From NCBI GenBank assembly GCA_027315455.1, contig DAHUXZ010000023.1, forward strand, positions 1-36,197: a stretch of 36,197 bases of DNA. The letters are read 5' to 3'. Positions 1,094 through 26,241 of the stretch are shown here, piece by piece. The notes beneath the pieces were generated by a model. It saw nothing but the letters and a program-made list of their open reading frames with translations. It was not told the DNA's origin and did not search any database. Position numbers and translations under genes: made by a program. Numbering within the stretch: the stretch's first letter is position 1; the number at the start of each line of letters is the position of its first letter. The stretch comes from Thermoplasmata archaeon. GTDB lineage: Archaea; Thermoplasmatota; Thermoplasmata; Lutacidiplasmatales; UBA184.

Positions 1094-2107
1094 ATGGCGA
1101 CGGCGGCGGTACTCGGCGCGAGCGGGTACCTCGGGGGAGAGCTTCTCCGGGTGCTGTCGGACCATCCCTCGATCGAGGTCGTCCAGGCGGTCTCGCAGAG
1201 CCGGGCCGGCCAGCGCCTCGGGGACGTGGCCCCGAACCTCGAGCGCTTCCAGGACCTCCGGCTCTCCCCGGACGCGTCGACCGTGGATGCCGACATCGCC
1301 TTCCTCGCCCAACCGGCCGGCGAGGCGATGACGGTCGTCCCCTCCCTCCTCGACCGTGGGATCAAGGTGGTCGACCTGGGCCCGGACTACCGTCTGCACG
1401 ACCCCGCGGAGTACGCCCGGGTCTACGGCCGCCCGCATGCCGACACCGACCACCTGTCGGAGGCCGTCTACGGGCTCCCCGAGGTGTTCGGCGCGCGGAT
1501 CCGCGCCGCCCGGCTCGTTGCCAACCCCGGCTGCTACCCGACGGCGACGCTCCTCGCCCTCGTCCCGCTCCTCGAGGCCCACGCGATCGTCGGCCCGGTG
1601 GTCGTCGACGCGAAGAGCGGCACCTCCGGCTCCGGCGCCCAGCCCACGGCGACGAGCCACCACCCCGAGGCCGCCCTCACAATCCTGCCGTACGGCGCGC
1701 CGCTCCACCGTCACGTTCCCGAGATGCAGGGCGTGCTGCGCGAGCTCGGAGCCGCGCCCGGGCCGCTCACCTTCGTCCCGCACCTGGTCCCGCTCGTCCG
1801 CGGTATCCTCTGCTCGATCTACGCGACCGCGGCCGGCCCGGCGGACGCCGGGGCCTGGGAGGCGCTCTACCGCGCGCGGTACGCCGACCACCCGTTCGTC
1901 CGCGTCGGGCGGGTCCCCCGGCTACCGTGGGCGCAGGGAACGAACCGCTGCTACCTCGCCGTCGAGCGGGTCGGCGACGCGCCGGTCGTCTTCAGCGTGC
2001 TCGACAATCTCGGGAAGGGCGGGGCGACCCAGGCGGTACAGAACGCGAATCTCCTCTTCGGCTGGCCGGAGACCCTCGGCCTCAGCCGGGCGGGGTACGG
2101 GGTCTAG
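1094..2107 (+). CDS. argC: N-acetyl-gamma-glutamyl-phosphate reductase
   Basis: 337 residues, the normal family length. ArgC reduces N-acetylglutamyl phosphate to the semialdehyde with NADPH, the third step of arginine synthesis, in the cytoplasm. The N-terminus carries the Rossmann signature VLGASGYLGGELLR, and the catalytic cysteine is C147 in the NPGCYPTATLL motif. The C-terminal part has the family's conserved HRHVPEM segment and ends in NLLFGWPETLGL. The ATG at 1094 places the nucleotide-binding strand directly at the start, as usual. It is the first of five consecutive arginine genes; argJ starts four bases after its stop. The LysW-dependent homologues (LysY) look similar, but the adjacent ArgJ, which needs acetylated substrates, and the absence of LysW/LysX here favour the acetylated pathway. 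Confidence 0.95.
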   Translation: MATAAVLGASGYLGGELLRVLSDHPSIEVVQAVSQSRAGQRLGDVAPNLERFQDLRLSPDASTVDADIAFLAQPAGEAMTVVPSLLDRGIKVVDLGPDYRLHDPAEYARVYGRPHADTDHLSEAVYGLPEVFGARIRAARLVANPGCYPTATLLALVPLLEAHAIVGPVVVDAKSGTSGSGAQPTATSHHPEAALTILPYGAPLHRHVPEMQGVLRELGAAPGPLTFVPHLVPLVRGILCSIYATAAGPADAGAWEALYRARYADHPFVRVGRVPRLPWAQGTNRCYLAVERVGDAPVVFSVLDNLGKGGATQAVQNANLLFGWPETLGLSRAGYGV

Positions 2108-2111
2108 CACG

Positions 2112-3356
2112 ATGTGGACGATCGCAGGCGGGGTGACGACGCCCGTCGGCTTCTCGGCCGGCGGGATCGCGAGCGGCGTGAAGCGGAGCGGGCGGCCGGA
2201 TCTCTCGGTCCTGCTCTCCGACCGGCCGGCCGCCGCGGCGGGGGTCTTCACGACGAACGTCGTCCGCGCGGCGCCCGTCGTCCTGGGCACGGAGCTCCTC
2301 GCGCGCGCGCCCGGTGAGGTTCGCGGAGTGCTCACCGTCGCCGGCGTGGCGAACGCCCTCACCGGGCCCGAGGGGATCGACGACAACCGCGCCCTCCTCG
2401 CCTCGGCCGAGTCGACCTTCGGCCTTCCCCCCGGCTCCCTCCTCCCGGCGTGCACCGGGGTCATCGGTCCGCGCCTCCCGCTCGACCGCGTCATCGCCGC
2501 GCTGCCGGCGCTGCGCGGGGCGACCGCCGCGACGCGGGACGGCGCCGAGCGGGCCGCGCACGCGATCCTCACGACCGACACCCGTTCCAAGGAGGCGGCG
2601 GTGCGCCTTCGTCTGGCCGACGGCCAGGTCGTGCGCATCGGCGGGATGGCGAAGGGCAGCGGCATGATCGCCCCCCGCCTCGCGCTCCCCCACGCGACGA
2701 CCCTGGCCTACGTCGCGACGGATGCGCGGATCGCGCCGGAGACCCTCGGGCGGATCCTCGCCCGCGAGGCCGACGCGACGTTCAACATGGTGAGCGTCGA
2801 CGGCGATACGAGCACCAACGACACCGTCTACGTCCTCGCGAACGGGGCCGCGGGAGCCACGCCCGCCGACGACGACCCGAACTTCCGCGCGGGGCTGAGG
2901 GCCGTCCTCGAGTCGCTCGCCCGCCAGGTCGCCCGCGACGGCGAAGGCGCGACCAAGCTCCTCACGGTCCGGGTCGAAGGGGCCCGCTCCATCGCCGACG
3001 CGCGCGCGGCGGCCCGGGCCGTCGTGGGTTCCACGCTCGTCAAGGCGGCGCTGTTCGGGGCCGACCCGAACGTCGGCCGCATCGCGGCCGCGCTCGGCTA
3101 CTCCGGCGCGCGGCTCACGCCGGAGGGGTTGAGCGTCGCCCTCGTCCGGCCCCGCGGGTCCGTCCCGCTGATCGTCAACGGGCGTCCCGCGCCCGGCCTC
3201 GAGAACGGCGGCGCGAAGCGCGTCCGGGACCTCCTCCGCCAGCTCGACGAGGTCCCGCTCGAGATCCAGCTCAACGAGGGGCGCGCCGCGGCGGTGGCGT
3301 GGGGCTGCGACCTCTCCTACGCCTACGTCCAGATCAACGCCGCCTACCGCACATGA
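2112..3356 (+). CDS. argJ: Glutamate N-acetyltransferase / amino-acid acetyltransferase
   Basis: 414 residues. ArgJ moves the acetyl group from N-acetylornithine to glutamate, recycling it, and in bifunctional forms also uses acetyl-CoA. Family members cut themselves before a threonine that becomes the nucleophile. Here the KGSGMIAP segment is followed by ALPHATTLAY, so the cut should fall between A195 and T196. The acyl-binding motif CTGVIG, the FNMVSVDGDTSTND motif and the terminal VQINAAYRT are all present. The usual ATM at the cleavage site is ATT here, with the nucleophilic threonine kept. The start ATG is four bases after argC, and its TGA overlaps the argB ATG, suggesting translational coupling. 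Whether it is mono- or bifunctional cannot be decided from sequence alone. Confidence 0.95.
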   Translation: MWTIAGGVTTPVGFSAGGIASGVKRSGRPDLSVLLSDRPAAAAGVFTTNVVRAAPVVLGTELLARAPGEVRGVLTVAGVANALTGPEGIDDNRALLASAESTFGLPPGSLLPACTGVIGPRLPLDRVIAALPALRGATAATRDGAERAAHAILTTDTRSKEAAVRLRLADGQVVRIGGMAKGSGMIAPRLALPHATTLAYVATDARIAPETLGRILAREADATFNMVSVDGDTSTNDTVYVLANGAAGATPADDDPNFRAGLRAVLESLARQVARDGEGATKLLTVRVEGARSIADARAAARAVVGSTLVKAALFGADPNVGRIAAALGYSGARLTPEGLSVALVRPRGSVPLIVNGRPAPGLENGGAKRVRDLLRQLDEVPLEIQLNEGRAAAVAWGCDLSYAYVQINAAYRT

Positions 3357-4192
3357 ACCGAGATACCCCGACCGTCCTCAAGATCGGTGGCCGTGAGCTC
3401 GTCCCCGGTCCGGAGCTCGACCGGCTCGTGTCGGCGATCACCCGATGGGTCCGGAGGGGCGACCGTCTCGTCCTCGTCCACGGCGGCGGGGACGAGATCA
3501 CGGAGCGGGCCCGCGCGCTCGGCCTTCCGACGCAGCGGCGCGACGGCCAGCGGGTCACCGACACGGCGATGCTCGAGGTGGTGATCGAGGTCCTCGCGGG
3601 CCGGATCAACACGCGGCTCGTCCGGGCCCTCCTCGCCGCCGGCGTGCCGGCCCTCGGGCTCTCGGGCGTCTCCGGCGGTCTCGTCAAGGTCCGCCCCGCC
3701 GGGGTCCCGCCGGGGAGCCTCGGATGGGTCGGGACGCCGACCCACGTCGCGGGCCGCCTCCTGGACGGGCTCCTCCTCGACGGCCTCACCCCCGTCGTCG
3801 CCCCGCTCGGGGTCGACGCCCGCGGGGCGGTCTACAACGTCAACGCCGACCTCGCCGCCGCGGCGATCGCGGCCGCTCTCGGCGGGGAGCTGCGCCTCGT
3901 CACCGACGTCGAGGCGGTGCGCGGGACGGACGGGGAACCGATCTCCCGGCTCGGCCCCGCCGAGGCCCGCGCGCTCATCGCGAACGGCGTCGCGCGCGAC
4001 GGGATGGTCCCGAAGCTCGAGGCGACGCTCGTCGCGCTCGACGAGGGGGCCGCCTCGGCGTGGATCGGCGCGCTCGACGCCCTCGTCGACGGCGCCCCGG
4101 CCCCGACGCGCGGCACCTGGCTCGCCCCGACCCTGCCCCGGGGCCGGGCCGTCCGATCTTCCGCTCCGTTTACCGGAGGAGCGTTCCGATGA
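3353..4192 (+). CDS. argB: Acetylglutamate kinase
   Basis: 279 residues of the amino-acid-kinase fold. ArgB phosphorylates N-acetylglutamate with ATP, the second step of arginine synthesis and usually the feedback-controlled one. The N-terminal lysine strand VLKIGG, the glycine loop LVHGGGDEI, the substrate segment RVTDTAMLEVV, the NVNADLAAAAIAAAL motif and the nucleotide segment DGMVPKLEA match the family. The N-terminus is short, without the helix that forms the arginine-sensitive hexamer in many bacterial enzymes, so direct arginine inhibition is uncertain. The start ATG overlaps the argJ stop by four bases, and the stop overlaps the argG start the same way. The LysW-linked kinase LysZ is the nearest alternative, but the neighbours argue against it. 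Confidence 0.92.
   Translation: MNRDTPTVLKIGGRELVPGPELDRLVSAITRWVRRGDRLVLVHGGGDEITERARALGLPTQRRDGQRVTDTAMLEVVIEVLAGRINTRLVRALLAAGVPALGLSGVSGGLVKVRPAGVPPGSLGWVGTPTHVAGRLLDGLLLDGLTPVVAPLGVDARGAVYNVNADLAAAAIAAALGGELRLVTDVEAVRGTDGEPISRLGPAEARALIANGVARDGMVPKLEATLVALDEGAASAWIGALDALVDGAPAPTRGTWLAPTLPRGRAVRSSAPFTGGAFR
4175..4180 (+). promoter_or_regulatory. Shine-Dalgarno site for argG
   Basis: GGAGGA lies eight bases before the argG ATG at 4189, inside the end of argB. Internal operon genes here use such a site, while the first genes of transcripts mostly lack one. Confidence 0.6.
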
Positions 4193-5457
4193 CGACCTCG
4201 AACCCTTCGCGCCGCCACGTCGTCCTCGCCTACTCCGGCGGGCTCGACACCTCGATCGCGATCCCGTGGATCGGCGAGCACCACGACGCCGAGGTGACCG
4301 CCCTCAGCATCGATGTCGGCCAGGAGGGCGAGCTCACGGGCGCCCTCGACCGGGCGCGGAGGAACGGCGCCCGGGACGCGCGGCTCGTCGATGCGAAGGC
4401 CGCGTTCGTCCGCGAGTTCCTCTGGCCCGCGCTCCAGGCCAACGCGCTCTACGAGGGCGTCTACCCGCTCTCGACGGCCCTCGCACGGCCGCTCATCGCC
4501 CGGACCCTGGCCTCGGTCGCGCTCGAGCTGGGCGCCGACACCGTCGCGCACGGCTGCACCGGCAAGGGCAACGACCAGGTCCGGTTCGACGTCGCGATCC
4601 ACACCCTCGCCCCATCGCTCACCATCATCGCGCCGGTCCGGGAGTGGAACATGAACCGGGACGACGAGATCCGGTACGCCCGCGACCACCACCTCGAGAT
4701 ACGGGCGACCGTGGAGTCGCCGTACTCCGTGGACGAGAACCTCTGGGGCCGCAGCGTCGAGGGCGGTCGCCTCGAGGACCCGAACCGCCCCGCCCCCGAG
4801 GAGGTCTTCGACTGGACCGGCCACCCGGAGACCTGGCCGAAGGAGGCCGAAACCCTCGTCGTCGACTTCGAGCGCGGCCTTCCGACGCGAATCGACGGCC
4901 GCGCGCTCGACCCCGTCGACCTCGTCCGCGAGATGAACCGCCGCGCGGGCGCCCACGGCGTCGGGCGGATCGACCACGTCGAGGACCGGGTCGTGGGCAT
5001 CAAGTCCCGGGAGACCTACGAGTGCCCGGGGGCGATCGCGCTGCTCGAGGCGCACCGGTCCCTCGAGAGCCTCGTCCTCCCCCGCGACCTCCTCCAGTTC
5101 AAGGCCGGGGTCGACCGACGCTTCTCGGACCTCGTCTACGAGGGCCTCTGGTTCTCCCCGCTGCGGGAGGCGCTCGGCGCGTTCGTCGTCTCCACCCAGG
5201 AGGTCGTGACCGGCTCCGTCACCCTGCGGCTTCACCAGGGGAGCGTCCGTGCCGTCGGCCGGACCTCGGAGTACTCGCTCCTCGCCCCCGAGCTCGCGAC
5301 CTTCGGGGCCGGGAGCCGGTTCCCCCAGGAGCTGGCCGTCGGCTTCATCCACCTCTACGGCCTGCCGAACCAGCTGGCCCATGCCCGCCGCACGGCGGCC
5401 CGGGCCTCCACGGAGGCGGAGACCCCTGCTGCGGGAGCGCTTCTCAACCGCCCTTGA
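4189..5457 (+). CDS. argG: Argininosuccinate synthase
   Basis: 422 residues. ArgG joins citrulline and aspartate using ATP, which is cleaved to AMP and pyrophosphate. The ATP pyrophosphatase loop AYSGGLDTS is at residues 14-22, followed by the SIDVGQEGE strand, the AHGCTGKGNDQVRFD motif, the SPYSVDENLWGRS substrate loop and the GIKSRETYECPGA segment, all diagnostic. The length is slightly above that of the shorter bacterial enzymes (about 400), mainly through a variable tail. The ATG overlaps the argB stop and is preceded by a good Shine-Dalgarno site. The last part of the gene is overlapped in another frame by the start of argH. Confidence 0.96.
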   Translation: MTTSNPSRRHVVLAYSGGLDTSIAIPWIGEHHDAEVTALSIDVGQEGELTGALDRARRNGARDARLVDAKAAFVREFLWPALQANALYEGVYPLSTALARPLIARTLASVALELGADTVAHGCTGKGNDQVRFDVAIHTLAPSLTIIAPVREWNMNRDDEIRYARDHHLEIRATVESPYSVDENLWGRSVEGGRLEDPNRPAPEEVFDWTGHPETWPKEAETLVVDFERGLPTRIDGRALDPVDLVREMNRRAGAHGVGRIDHVEDRVVGIKSRETYECPGAIALLEAHRSLESLVLPRDLLQFKAGVDRRFSDLVYEGLWFSPLREALGAFVVSTQEVVTGSVTLRLHQGSVRAVGRTSEYSLLAPELATFGAGSRFPQELAVGFIHLYGLPNQLAHARRTAARASTEAETPAAGALLNRP

Positions 5458-6958
5458 CCCCGCGGCCCTCGCCTTCTCCGAGTCGACCTCGGAGGACCGG
5501 GTGCTGCTCGACGCGGACCTGTGGGGGTCGCTCGTGCACGCCGAGATGCTCGGGGCCGCCGGGATCGTCCCGCGGCCGTCGGTCGTGCGGATCTCGAAGG
5601 GGCTACGGGGGATCGCGCGCGACGCCGCGCGCGGGCGGTTCGCCCTCGCCCCCGAGCTCGAGGACGTCCACCTGAACGTCGAGAGCGGGCTGCGCCGGCG
5701 CATCGGTCGCGACGCCGACCGCCTCCACACCGGCCGCAGCCGCAACGACCAGGTGGCGACGGACCTGGCGATCTACCTCCGGGACGCCCTTATCGCCCTG
5801 GAGGGGTCGAGCGTCCTCCTTGGGCGGGCGCTGCTCGCGAAGGCCCGCGGTCCCGAGGGACGGGGGGTCGTCGAGGGCTGGACGCATCTTCAACCGGCCC
5901 AGCGGATCCGCTGGGGGCAGTGGCTCGCGACGCATGCGCTCTCCTTCGCGCGCGACGCGGCCCGCCTGGCCGCGATCCGCGCCTCCCTCACCGATTGTCC
6001 CCTCGGCAGCGGGGCGATCGCGGGCAGCTCGCTCCCGCTGGACCGATGGCGGACGGCCCGGGCCCTCGGCTTCGCCCGACCCTCCCTCTCCTCGCTCGAC
6101 TCGGTGTCGGACCGGGACGCGGCCCTCGCGACGCTCGCCGCGCTCGCCCTCCTGGCCGTCCACGTGAGCCGCCTCGCGGAGGAGCTCGTCCTCGGCTCGA
6201 TGCCCGAGATCGGGCGGGTCCGCCTCCCCGACGCCTTCGTCACGACGAGCTCGCTCATGCCCCACAAGCGCAACCCGGACCTCGCCGAGCTCCTCCGCGC
6301 CGAGTCGGCCGGCGCCGTCGGCCGCCTCACGACCCACCTCACCCTCGCCCGGGCCCTCCCGCTCGGCTACCAGCGCGACCTCCAGGCCGGAAAGCCGGTC
6401 CTCTTCACCGGGGTCGACCGCGCGCTCGCGAGCCTCGCCGTCCTGACCCCGATGGTGGCGGGGACCCGCTTCCTCGAGCCGGCGGTGTCGGCCCGGTCGT
6501 CGACGGCGAGCGTCGAGCTCGCCGACGCGCTGGTCGGTGCCGGGGTCCCGTTCCGCCGCGCCCACGCCCGCGTCGCCCGCTGGCTCGCGCGACGCGAGGG
6601 TTCGGGCCACGGCCTCGCCGACGCGACCCCCGCGGAGCTGCGGGAGGCGTTCCCCGAGCTTCCCGAGGGGTACGCCCCGGCCGGTCCCCTGGCGGAGCCC
6701 GAGCTCCGCCGGACCTACGGGGGAAGCGCCTCGACGGAGGTCGACCGCCTCATCGGCGAGGTCGACGGTCGGCTCCGAGCGATCGCACGGGCCGCCGGGA
6801 ACGAGCGGCGGCGCCTCGATCGGCTCCGCGCCCGGATCGGGCTATCTCCCTCGCGCCTGTTCGGGGCCGGCGAAGCGGCTACGCCGTCGCCGGCGTCTGG
6901 CCGACGGCACGGCCGTTCGCGCGCCCGGGGACGACGGGCGCGGCCCCGGCGCCGTTGA
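5381..6958 (+). CDS. argH: Argininosuccinate lyase
   Basis: About 525 residues from the ATG at 5381, in the fumarase/aspartase superfamily. ArgH splits argininosuccinate into arginine and fumarate. The LHTGRSRNDQVATD motif, THLQPAQRIRWGQW and the catalytic serine loop TSSLMPHKRNPD are present. That loop is HKRN rather than the QKKN usual in ArgH, a spelling more familiar from adenylosuccinate lyase. The TGRSRNDQ motif and operon position still identify ArgH. The conserved protein begins near RERFSTALDPAALAF (about 5432), so the first 16 residues from ATG 5381 are a basic extension. A CTG around 5427 is another possible start. The Arg-rich C-terminal tail (after about 6840) overlaps the convergent zinc-finger gene by 80 bases. 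Confidence 0.9.
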   Translation: MPAARRPGPPRRRRPLLRERFSTALDPAALAFSESTSEDRVLLDADLWGSLVHAEMLGAAGIVPRPSVVRISKGLRGIARDAARGRFALAPELEDVHLNVESGLRRRIGRDADRLHTGRSRNDQVATDLAIYLRDALIALEGSSVLLGRALLAKARGPEGRGVVEGWTHLQPAQRIRWGQWLATHALSFARDAARLAAIRASLTDCPLGSGAIAGSSLPLDRWRTARALGFARPSLSSLDSVSDRDAALATLAALALLAVHVSRLAEELVLGSMPEIGRVRLPDAFVTTSSLMPHKRNPDLAELLRAESAGAVGRLTTHLTLARALPLGYQRDLQAGKPVLFTGVDRALASLAVLTPMVAGTRFLEPAVSARSSTASVELADALVGAGVPFRRAHARVARWLARREGSGHGLADATPAELREAFPELPEGYAPAGPLAEPELRRTYGGSASTEVDRLIGEVDGRLRAIARAAGNERRRLDRLRARIGLSPSRLFGAGEAATPSPASGRRHGRSRARGRRARPRRR

Positions 6959-25312: not shown

Positions 25313-25573
25313 ATGCTGCTCTTTGCGGACCAGCGGAGCTTTTCCACGTCCGAGGAGCGCTTCCAGCCCTGCGCGTTCTGCGGCCGGGACCTGGTCGTCC
25401 TGCCGAACGACCGGCGCCAGGGCGCCTGCTTCGACTGCCTCACGCTGCTCGGTCCCGAGGCCGTCCCGTGCCCGGACTGCTCCACCGAGATCCCGCCGTC
25501 GCGGCGTTCGCTCGGCTGTCCCTCGTGCGGCTGGTACCCCGGCCGGCGATGGCCCGGCCGCGTTCCCCGCTAA
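25313..25573 (+). CDS. Small protein with four CxxC zinc knuckles
   Basis: 86 residues. Four CxxC pairs, at C20/C23, C39/C42, C53/C56 and C69/C72, would make two zinc ribbons in tandem (PCAFCG with CFDC, and CPDC with CPSCG). It has no membrane segment and no catalytic motif. Tandem ribbons of this kind bind nucleic acid or act as adaptors; no family is recognised with confidence. The gene is monocistronic: its promoter lies 30 bases upstream, and the promoter of the following tRNA overlaps its stop codon. Confidence 0.75.
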   Translation: MLLFADQRSFSTSEERFQPCAFCGRDLVVLPNDRRQGACFDCLTLLGPEAVPCPDCSTEIPPSRRSLGCPSCGWYPGRRWPGRVPR

Positions 25574-25580
25574 CCTTATC
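25574..25580 (+). promoter_or_regulatory. Promoter box of the tRNA-Ser gene
   Basis: CCTTATC begins on the base after the TAA stop of the zinc-ribbon gene and lies about 33 bases before the mature 5' end of the tRNA, leaving room for a short 5' leader removed by RNase P. Confidence 0.5.
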
Positions 25581-25609: not shown

Positions 25610-25727
25610 GCCGAGGTGGCTCAGTCCGGTACGGCGCGAGTCTGGAAAGCTCGTGGCGGAATACGCCTCGGGAGTTCAAAGACCGGGTCGGGATCGTCCC
25701 GACCGGTGGAGACTCTCCCCCTCGGCG
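25610..25727 (+). tRNA. tRNA-Ser (anticodon GGA) with an intron in the T loop
   Basis: Acceptor stem 25610-25616 pairs with 25720-25726 in all seven positions, and the discriminator is G25727. The D stem is GCU/GGC, typical of class II tRNAs. The anticodon stem CGAGU/GCUCG closes the loop CUGGAAA, giving anticodon GGA (UCC/UCU codons). A long variable arm follows (GGCG/CGCC). The T stem is GGGAG (25670-25674) with CUCCC (25715-25719). Between them lie 40 bases instead of seven. Removing 25681-25713 restores the standard loop TTCAAAT, so the gene is intact but must be spliced. CCA is not encoded. The molecule serves serine decoding in translation. Confidence 0.9.
25681..25713 (+). other. Predicted 33-nt tRNA intron at T-loop position 59/60
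   Basis: The intron folds into a hairpin: GGTCGGGA pairs with TCCCGACC around a three-base loop, and ACC pairs with GGT below a bulged G. At the exon border a relaxed bulge-helix-bulge forms: UUCA (25675-25678) against GGAG (25708-25711) with a G-U wobble and a terminal A-G mismatch, a 5' bulge A-A-G and a 3' bulge A-C-U. Both predicted cuts fall between the second and third bulge base, as the archaeal splicing endonuclease requires, and they are exactly the cuts that restore the T loop. Confidence 0.8.
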
Positions 25728-25758: not shown

Positions 25759-26241
25759 ATGAGCATCGCCCCGCGTCGCGCCACCCCCGCGCTGCTCCAG
25801 ATCGACGCGATCCTGCGCCGGCTCATCGGGCGGGATGCGCTGACCGAGGTCTGCCGCTTCCTCCGGCACGAGTTCTCCCACTTCGCCTGGGTCGGCGTCT
25901 ACCAGAAGGACGGGGAAGTGCTCCGCCTCGCCGGCTGGAACGGGCCGGCCCCGACGGAGCATACCGTGATCGCCCTCGACCGCGGCGTCTGCGGACGGGC
26001 TGCGCGCGAGGGCCGCACGATCGTCGTCGACGACGTGCGCGCGGCACCGGAGTATCTCGCCTGCTTTTTCGAGACGCGGGCGGAGATCGTCGTCCCCGTC
26101 CGGGACCCGTCCGGCGTCCTCGGGGAGGTCGACATCGACGGGACTAGCGTCGCGGCCTTCGACCGGAGCGACGCGCAGTTCCTCGAGGCGGTGGCGGCGA
26201 AGCTCGCCCCGGTCCTTGCGACGCTCCCGCCGCCGCCCTGA
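25759..26241 (+). CDS. GAF-domain protein related to free methionine-R-sulfoxide reductase
   Basis: 160 residues, a single GAF domain. The order of blocks (FAWVGVYQKDG, LDRGVCGRAAREG, IVVDDVRAAPEYLACF, AEIVVPVRD, GEVDIDGTSVAAFDRSD) follows free methionine-R-sulfoxide reductases (YebR/MsrC). Two of the three cysteines used by the E. coli enzyme have counterparts here, C78 in GVCG and C102 in YLACF. The position of the first one (in the segment before LDRG) reads TEHTVI and has none. It may be a reductase with a reduced cysteine set or a sensor. The ATG at 25759 is the start that gives the usual domain border. The 3' end overlaps the convergent phosphopantothenate synthetase gene by 98 bases. 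Confidence 0.78.
   Translation: MSIAPRRATPALLQIDAILRRLIGRDALTEVCRFLRHEFSHFAWVGVYQKDGEVLRLAGWNGPAPTEHTVIALDRGVCGRAAREGRTIVVDDVRAAPEYLACFFETRAEIVVPVRDPSGVLGEVDIDGTSVAAFDRSDAQFLEAVAAKLAPVLATLPPPP

Follow-up and report, generated by a model that had tools for sequence, protein, structure and literature searches.

The window analysed here is a stretch of 36,197 nt, and its positions 25610-25727 hold, on the forward strand, a class II tRNA-Ser(GGA) gene in which all stems pair when the sequence is read directly (Table 1). The anticodon loop, CTGGAAA, carries GGA on a 5-bp stem, the variable arm is that of a class II tRNA, and the two strands of the T stem enclose TTCAAA, 33 further nucleotides and a T. 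A prior sequence-only reading had identified the gene as tRNA-Ser(GGA), placed a 33-nt insert between positions 59 and 60 with a splice junction at 25680/25714, and given TTCAAAT as the loop of the product, all of which holds up: the intron reads as 25681-25713 in the sequence, its removal in silico yields TTCAAAT, and ARAGORN then calls tRNA-Ser(gga) from end to end. The spliced loop is the same as that of the uninterrupted tRNA-Ser(TGA) of the same genome. The warning that standard gene finders may miss the gene was also well founded. ARAGORN found no tRNA in the unmodified window, Rfam gave no match to the gene in the window at its gathering score, and in a tRNA search of the whole genome the gene appeared as a broken match of 22.8 bits (E 0.02), with the tRNA cut-off at 29.

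Table 1. Features of the interrupted tRNA-Ser(GGA) gene, in window coordinates
Feature	Position	Strand	Basis
Putative TATA-like promoter element AACCTTAT	25572..25579	+	gene positions -38 to -31; -34 = T in 49/55 Ser(GGA) upstream regions
Acceptor stem GCCGAGG / CCTCGGC	25610-25616 / 25720-25726	+	sequence
5' exon, positions 1-59, with anticodon GGA, class II variable arm, T stem 5' strand and TTCAAA	25610..25680	+	sequence; mean exon identity 97.8%, 917 comparable pairs of 55 genes
T stem 5' strand GGGAG, outer exon helix of the BHB	25670..25674	+	pairs with CTCCC 25715-25719; T stem 100% paired in both module alignments
U54-U55-C56-A57, exon strand of the BHB central helix	25675..25678	+	faces 25708-25711: U-G, U-A, C-G, A.G
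5' bulge AAG (3 nt), inferred cut after 25680	25679..25681	+	A59 invariant, intron base 1 variable, 55 genes
33-nt intron between positions 59 and 60	25681..25713	+	ARAGORN recognises the tRNA once it is removed
Intron hairpin ACCGG(G)TCGGG / CCCGACCGGT, loop ATCGT	25682..25707	+	module fold; both sides of pairs change among relatives
GGAG, intron strand of the BHB central helix	25708..25711	+	pairing tables, 55 Ser(GGA) genes and 115 genes
3' bulge ACT, inferred cut after 25713	25712..25714	+	intron base -2 = A and exon base 60 = T in 55/55; intron base -1 variable
3' exon: T60, T stem 3' strand, acceptor 3' strand, G73	25714..25727	+	sequence
Discriminator G (G73)	25727	+	sequence

A TTAT core recurs about 34 bases upstream of Ser(GGA) genes (55 upstream regions). 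The gene directly 3' of the tRNA, at window positions 25759-26241, encodes a GAF-domain protein. At 1094-6958 the window also holds a run of genes that resembles an arginine-biosynthesis cluster, with ArgC, ArgJ, ArgB, ArgG and ArgH recognised by eye from the translations.

Interrupted tRNA genes in the genome and its relatives

In the genome that contains the window (1.98 Mb in 87 contigs, 94% complete), the tRNA search found 28 matches at E<=0.001, rising to 37 at E<=10, and a tRNA-Leu(TAG) gene located beside tRNA-Gln brings the set to 38. Whether a second tRNA-Ser(GGA) exists had been flagged as a point to check, and the 37 matches at E<=10 include no other GGA gene. Fourteen of the 38 genes carry a 28-35-nt insert at the 59/60 site, namely those for Ser (GGA, GCT and CGA), Arg (TCG and TCT), Ala(GGC), Gln(CTG), Asp, Lys(TTT), His, Gly(TCC), Asn, Glu(CTC) and Leu(TAG), and 59/60 is the commonest intron site among the tRNA genes found in this genome. 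After splicing in silico, ARAGORN returned the expected tRNA in all 14 (11/11 in one group and 3/3 in another); before splicing it recognised 4/11 and 0/3. The Rfam search placed 9 of the 14 at E >0.001, with Leu(TAG) absent from that search altogether. A general tRNA search at the usual threshold misses most genes with a 59/60 insert, and the genome then looks poor in tRNAs.

Other intron positions are also used. In tRNA-Lys(TTT) (L035, G000:C30:9413-9501 minus) and tRNA-Leu(TAG) (L033, G000:C12) there is a second insert in the D loop, of 30 and 27 nt, respectively, as cut, with a border that looks bulge-helix-bulge-like by eye; both inserts have to be removed for a correct end-to-end ARAGORN call. 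Anticodon-loop introns are present in the genes for Tyr, Leu(TAA) and Glu(TTC). The last of these (L022, G000:C21:10066-10165 minus) has a 25-nt intron, and its removal leaves C33 in place of the near-universal U. No gene was found in this genome for Ile GAT, Trp, Pro TGG/GGG, Val CAC, Leu CAA or further CAT tRNAs; these may lie in assembly gaps or be interrupted in such a way that the searches miss them.

The nearest named relatives place the genome in the Thermoplasmatota, order Lutacidiplasmatales, which agrees with the guess of a Thermoplasmatota genome made from the letters of the window. Among the matches listed, the closest relative of the window's PurP protein is from Thermoplasmata archaeon YF1.bin107 (95%), and others are from UBA184 (81%) and Candidatus Lutacidiplasma silvani AcS3-62 (78%). 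The latter two are assigned to one order and family, Lutacidiplasmatales, in the text of PMC9287336. Named loci were collected as relatives of PurP in named genomes (best 80 of 196), and in 54 of these best 80 a tRNA-Ser(GGA) gene lies downstream with an insert at the same place. The same script found no uninterrupted Ser(GGA) gene in the best 80 of the 196 loci. No Ser(GGA) gene was found in 26 of the 80, several of which are short and 12 of which are the most distant. The 55 Ser(GGA) genes, compared in 917 pairs once pairs of unequal length had been dropped, averaged 97.8% identity in their exons vs 68.3% in their introns.

A model of the intron module, comprising the T arm and the intron (R2), was scanned over 400 genomes of the class and matched in 127 of them, a count of model matches rather than of individually verified genes. 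Within the family of the window's genome, matches were present in 95/95 genomes at 3-12 each (70 from the genus that includes the window's genome and 25 others), as read off a kinship-ordered list of silent genomes, which begins with those of the same order. Outside the family, 32/305 genomes matched, 18 of them from a single genus of a second family with 1-4 matches each. All of these counts are lower bounds, since the model misses the Gly(TCC) intron of the window's own genome and 15 candidates were scored per genome. A fuller search of 16 non-family genomes gave a match at E<=0.05 in 16/16, but 13 of the 16 had been picked for an earlier R2 match, and three same-order genomes that had been silent before matched weakly. 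Two other weak matches are L123:3996-4034 and L023:1540-1581, the latter of which proved to be the anticodon intron of a Leu(TAA) gene and was discarded.

When loci were fetched, the stems and anticodon arm confirmed 29/30 and 26/27 from the family as tRNA genes interrupted at 59/60. Outside the family 8/30 were confirmed, the other 22 including some with good scores, such as L230. The confirmed non-family genes are four for Leu(TAA) and one CAT tRNA from the second family, Ala(CGC) from two genomes of the same order, and His from another family; of these isotypes, only His is also interrupted at 59/60 in the window's genome. The presence of 59/60 introns in isotypes that are unaffected in the window's genome suggests independent gains within the class. 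The loci concerned are L242 and L243 (same-order genomes, Ala CGC) and L234, L248, L249, L256 and L257 (second family, Leu TAA and CAT).

Introns of the same isotype were 0.69 alike across genomes (186 pairs), compared with 0.61 for different isotypes within a genome (68 pairs), with pairs that differ at base 57 dropped from both. Because likeness is higher across genomes than within them, the 59/60 set looks old and mainly inherited, and any spread of these introns looks to predate the split of the genomes compared.

The 59/60 border as a possible bulge-helix-bulge

In the Ser(GGA) gene, a bulge-helix-bulge (BHB) of 3-4-3 layout capped by a hairpin can be built from the T stem, bases 54-57 and the last bases of the intron, a structure that, at the level of sequence, is kept in relatives and in 13 other genes of the same genome. 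The sequence-only reading had proposed such a motif, each strand being cut between the second and third bulge bases, and the layout holds; it had also named relatives with the insert and no BHB as a case that would count against the intron, and the insert-bearing relatives keep the motif. All 14 genes with a 59/60 insert can accommodate the 3-4-3 layout. Its central helix has four standard pairs in the six genes with G57 and in Glu(CTC), and three pairs plus an A.G juxtaposition in the other seven, including Ser(GGA), so that on sequence the motif is strict in half of the 14 and relaxed in half. The earlier description of the BHB as relaxed is thereby made specific: the relaxed part is the A57.G juxtaposition, and most G57 tRNAs can make the full 4-bp helix. 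In this genome, G57 faces C in 6/6 genes, and A57 faces G in 7/8 and U in 1/8.

The 55 Ser(GGA) genes, a set chosen without any pairing rule for the end of the intron, show the same constraints. TTCAAA, T60 and an A at intron position -2 occur in 55/55; so does G opposite C56, and a purine lies opposite both U54 and U55 in every gene. A G at intron position -6, facing A57, is found in 53/55. Conservation fixes the intron borders at 59/60: A59 and T60 never vary while the adjoining intron bases do.

A broader table covers 115 distinct genes with perfect acceptor, anticodon and T stems, from which identical intron/anticodon pairs were dropped and the Asn, Lys and Leu(TAG) genes of the window's genome, missed by these rules, were left out. 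It is biased towards pairing, since the intron end was picked partly by its central-helix pairs, and within it C56-G occurs in 115 genes and U54 and U55 lie opposite a purine in all 115. G57 faces C in 10/11 genes and U in 1/11, vs A57 facing G in 95/104, U in 7, A in 1 and C in 1. Base 57 thus covaries with intron base -6 (G57-C in 10/11, A57-C in 1/104; Fisher p 1.6e-12, kinship ignored).

Two module alignments, one of 13 modules from the window's genome and one of 51 distinct matches from relatives, gave a covariation score and a percentage of paired positions above all 500 shuffles and every slid register, with the caveat that both alignments were fitted to the model and structure is therefore favoured; other pair measures on the same alignments were reached by up to 8/500 shuffles. 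A MAFFT alignment of 12 modules was structurally unsound, and five were aligned instead with the rest fitted using the model. Free-energy folding of the whole unspliced Ser(GGA) gene did not give a cloverleaf, but the intron hairpin was present, and among folds of 12 T-arm modules only three (ArgTCG, GlnCTG and GlyTCC) contained the central helix. Intron base 1 could pair with base -6 in 53/104 A57 genes, and for this reason the geometry of the 5' bulge is uncertain in A57 genes. As a conserved structure this pair was ruled out, being allowed in only 53/104 A57 and 4/11 G57 genes.

Splicing machinery and alternative readings

The window's genome encodes the ligase candidate RtcB (E 3.7e-174), and profile searches with PF01974 and TIGR00324 found no endA in this 94% complete assembly. 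The neighbour of endA in one relative, pyrE, was likewise not found, although an empty result of that search shows nothing in itself. This suggests an assembly gap but is not proof, and we consider that endA is probably missing from the assembly in this way. A lineage without the endonuclease, and hence with a new enzyme, was considered and dropped, given that endA is present in 87/95 family genomes and that its neighbour is missing too.

The type of endonuclease had been singled out as something to check, and in the relatives it can be read. Their EndA is a single chain of about 350 residues, and the protein at L187 has two stretches each of PF01974 and PF02778. Each of the six family proteins aligned carries both repeats in a single chain, and they match archaeal EndA structures. 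Set against 16 other Thermoplasmata EndAs, these six run colinear and show no insertion resembling a CSL or ASL; the one departure is four extra residues in L192, at a different place in the first repeat. Relative to 1r0v, which we take to be the Archaeoglobus EndA, the family proteins have a gap of no more than one residue ahead of the catalytic repeat; 3p1z, presumably the Aeropyrum EndA with its CSL at the extra residues, is about 9 residues longer in the first repeat. Judged from these alignments, the relatives' EndA is a fused two-repeat, alpha'2-like enzyme without the broad-specificity loops. Inserted specificity loops are described for crenarchaeal and ARMAN EndA (PMC6379350).

These observations fit the following route. 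The lineage's fused two-repeat EndA would cut each strand between the second and third bases of its bulge, and RtcB would then ligate the exons to give TTCAAAT. A single hairpin design ending in nGRRNN would be able to form a BHB in the T loop of any tRNA, because T54-T55-C56-R57-A58 is near-constant across tRNAs, and a design that fits all T loops would account for the use of a single site across so many isoacceptors. With a near-canonical motif at 59/60 and the TTCRA loop as its exon half, we infer that no conflict with the chemistry of the enzyme needs to be invoked.

Three other readings were weighed. It is improbable that the introns are real and are removed by some broad-specificity enzyme other than the fused EndA, for example one with an unrecognised second subunit. 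A third PF01974 match in one family genome (G344) would fit such an enzyme, as would the association of efficient removal of relaxed-motif introns with (alpha-beta)2 and epsilon2 enzymes in PMC6379350. However, exactly two PF01974 matches were found in 83 of the 87 endA-bearing family genomes (one in 3, three in 1), the two repeats share one chain in every protein aligned, and the near-canonical 3-4-3 motif could be acceptable to a strict enzyme.

We regard as very unlikely a second alternative in which the insert stays and the tRNAs work with an enlarged T arm that carries a hairpin on the T loop. The intron hairpin is indeed stable in folds, but the T loop must contact the D loop, and the exact borders that restore TTCRAAT would have no role in such an arm. 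Likewise, the purines opposite U54 and U55 and the invariant C56-G pair in 55/55 genes are what a BHB needs and not what an unspliced arm needs, and the covariation of base 57 with intron base -6 points the same way. Finally, a pseudogene or chance insertion, with UCC codons read by another gene, is scarcely credible: although the gene escapes ARAGORN, and Rfam at its cut-off, and another copy could be missing from a 94% complete genome, the 37 tRNA matches include no other GGA gene, all stems are intact, the gene persists in 54 named loci with exons 97.8% identical and a recurrent promoter-like element, and a same-site insert is present in 14/38 tRNA genes of this genome with model matches in 95/95 family genomes.

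Taken on its sequence, then, 25610-25727 is very probably a functional tRNA-Ser(GGA) gene with a genuine 33-nt archaeal intron at 59/60 that is spliced from the transcript.

Relation to other archaeal tRNA introns

Position 59/60 is listed in PMC4090602 among the archaeal tRNA intron positions, for which Crenarchaeota and Nanoarchaeota are rich sources; for Euryarchaeota, whose enzymes are mostly of the alpha4 or alpha2 type, the same paper gives one intron, at the canonical position. According to PMC4033280, alpha2-type enzymes cut only canonical BHB motifs, and PMC6379350 reports that an alpha'2 enzyme cleaved a relaxed motif at 37/38 in a full-length pre-tRNA. Non-canonical introns in Euryarchaeota are already known, because tRNAscan-SE 2.0 includes one BHB model trained on the non-canonical introns of Crenarchaeota and Euryarchaeota (PMC8450103). 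Methanopyrus kandleri is a euryarchaeal exception with non-canonical introns and an (alpha-beta)2 enzyme (PMC6379350), and the tRNA-Pyl of a euryarchaeon has BHB introns (PMC9071458).

The closest parallels are in the Thermoproteota, where the Thermoproteales have BHB introns beyond the anticodon loop in many tRNAs, 59/60 included, as here (PMC4090602). In contrast, the Thermoproteota use many positions and belong to phyla with alpha2beta2 enzymes (PMC4090602), whereas in this Thermoplasmatota lineage 59/60 is the commonest site among the tRNA genes found and the enzyme is the fused two-repeat form. The canonical euryarchaeal introns at 37/38 share the motif and presumably the enzyme with those described here, and the window's genome has anticodon-loop introns as well; they differ in lying in the anticodon loop, whereas the introns at 59/60 lie in the T loop with the conserved TTCR as the exon half of the motif.

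Intron transposition in the Thermoproteales was reportedly described by Fujishima in 2010, a study cited in PMC4033280 and PMC4090602. The situation here is similar in that one type of intron occurs across many tRNA species, but differs in that same-isotype introns across genomes are more alike than the introns within a genome. Non-canonical positions are also reported from ARMAN, Thaumarchaeota, soil Asgard archaea and some Euryarchaeota (PMC6379350, PMC8450103, PMC11291895, PMC4033280). The ARMAN EndA has a specificity loop (ASL), whereas the relatives' EndA shows no such insertion in the alignment.

The openly licensed literature searched, as far as its accessible text goes, contains no description of a 59/60 intron set in Thermoplasmatota. 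The words "intron" and "splicing" do not occur in the main text of PMC9287336, a study that ran tRNAscan-SE in its archaeal mode, where non-canonical introns are sought as well, and whose supplementary tables may hold such calls unremarked. The kind of intron is therefore known from elsewhere, and what look new are the Thermoplasmatota lineage, the scale and concentration at one site, and the enzyme context.

It is possible, and we offer this tentatively, that T-loop introns at 59/60 are a transplantable class of the Thermoplasmata in which the universal TTCRA supplies the exon half of the motif, so that a single short hairpin could move into any tRNA, and a strict but position-blind alpha'2 endonuclease removes them. 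The family provides more than 100 natural variants at a single site from which the rules of the central helix, A.G vs G-C, could be worked out. A Thermoplasmatota family that combines many T-loop introns with a fused two-repeat enzyme lacking the specificity loops would show that it is the motif, and not the position in the tRNA, that limits the enzyme. If the introns are such a transplantable class, intron position would be uncoupled from enzyme type, breaking the rule that ties two-repeat enzymes to introns at the canonical position.
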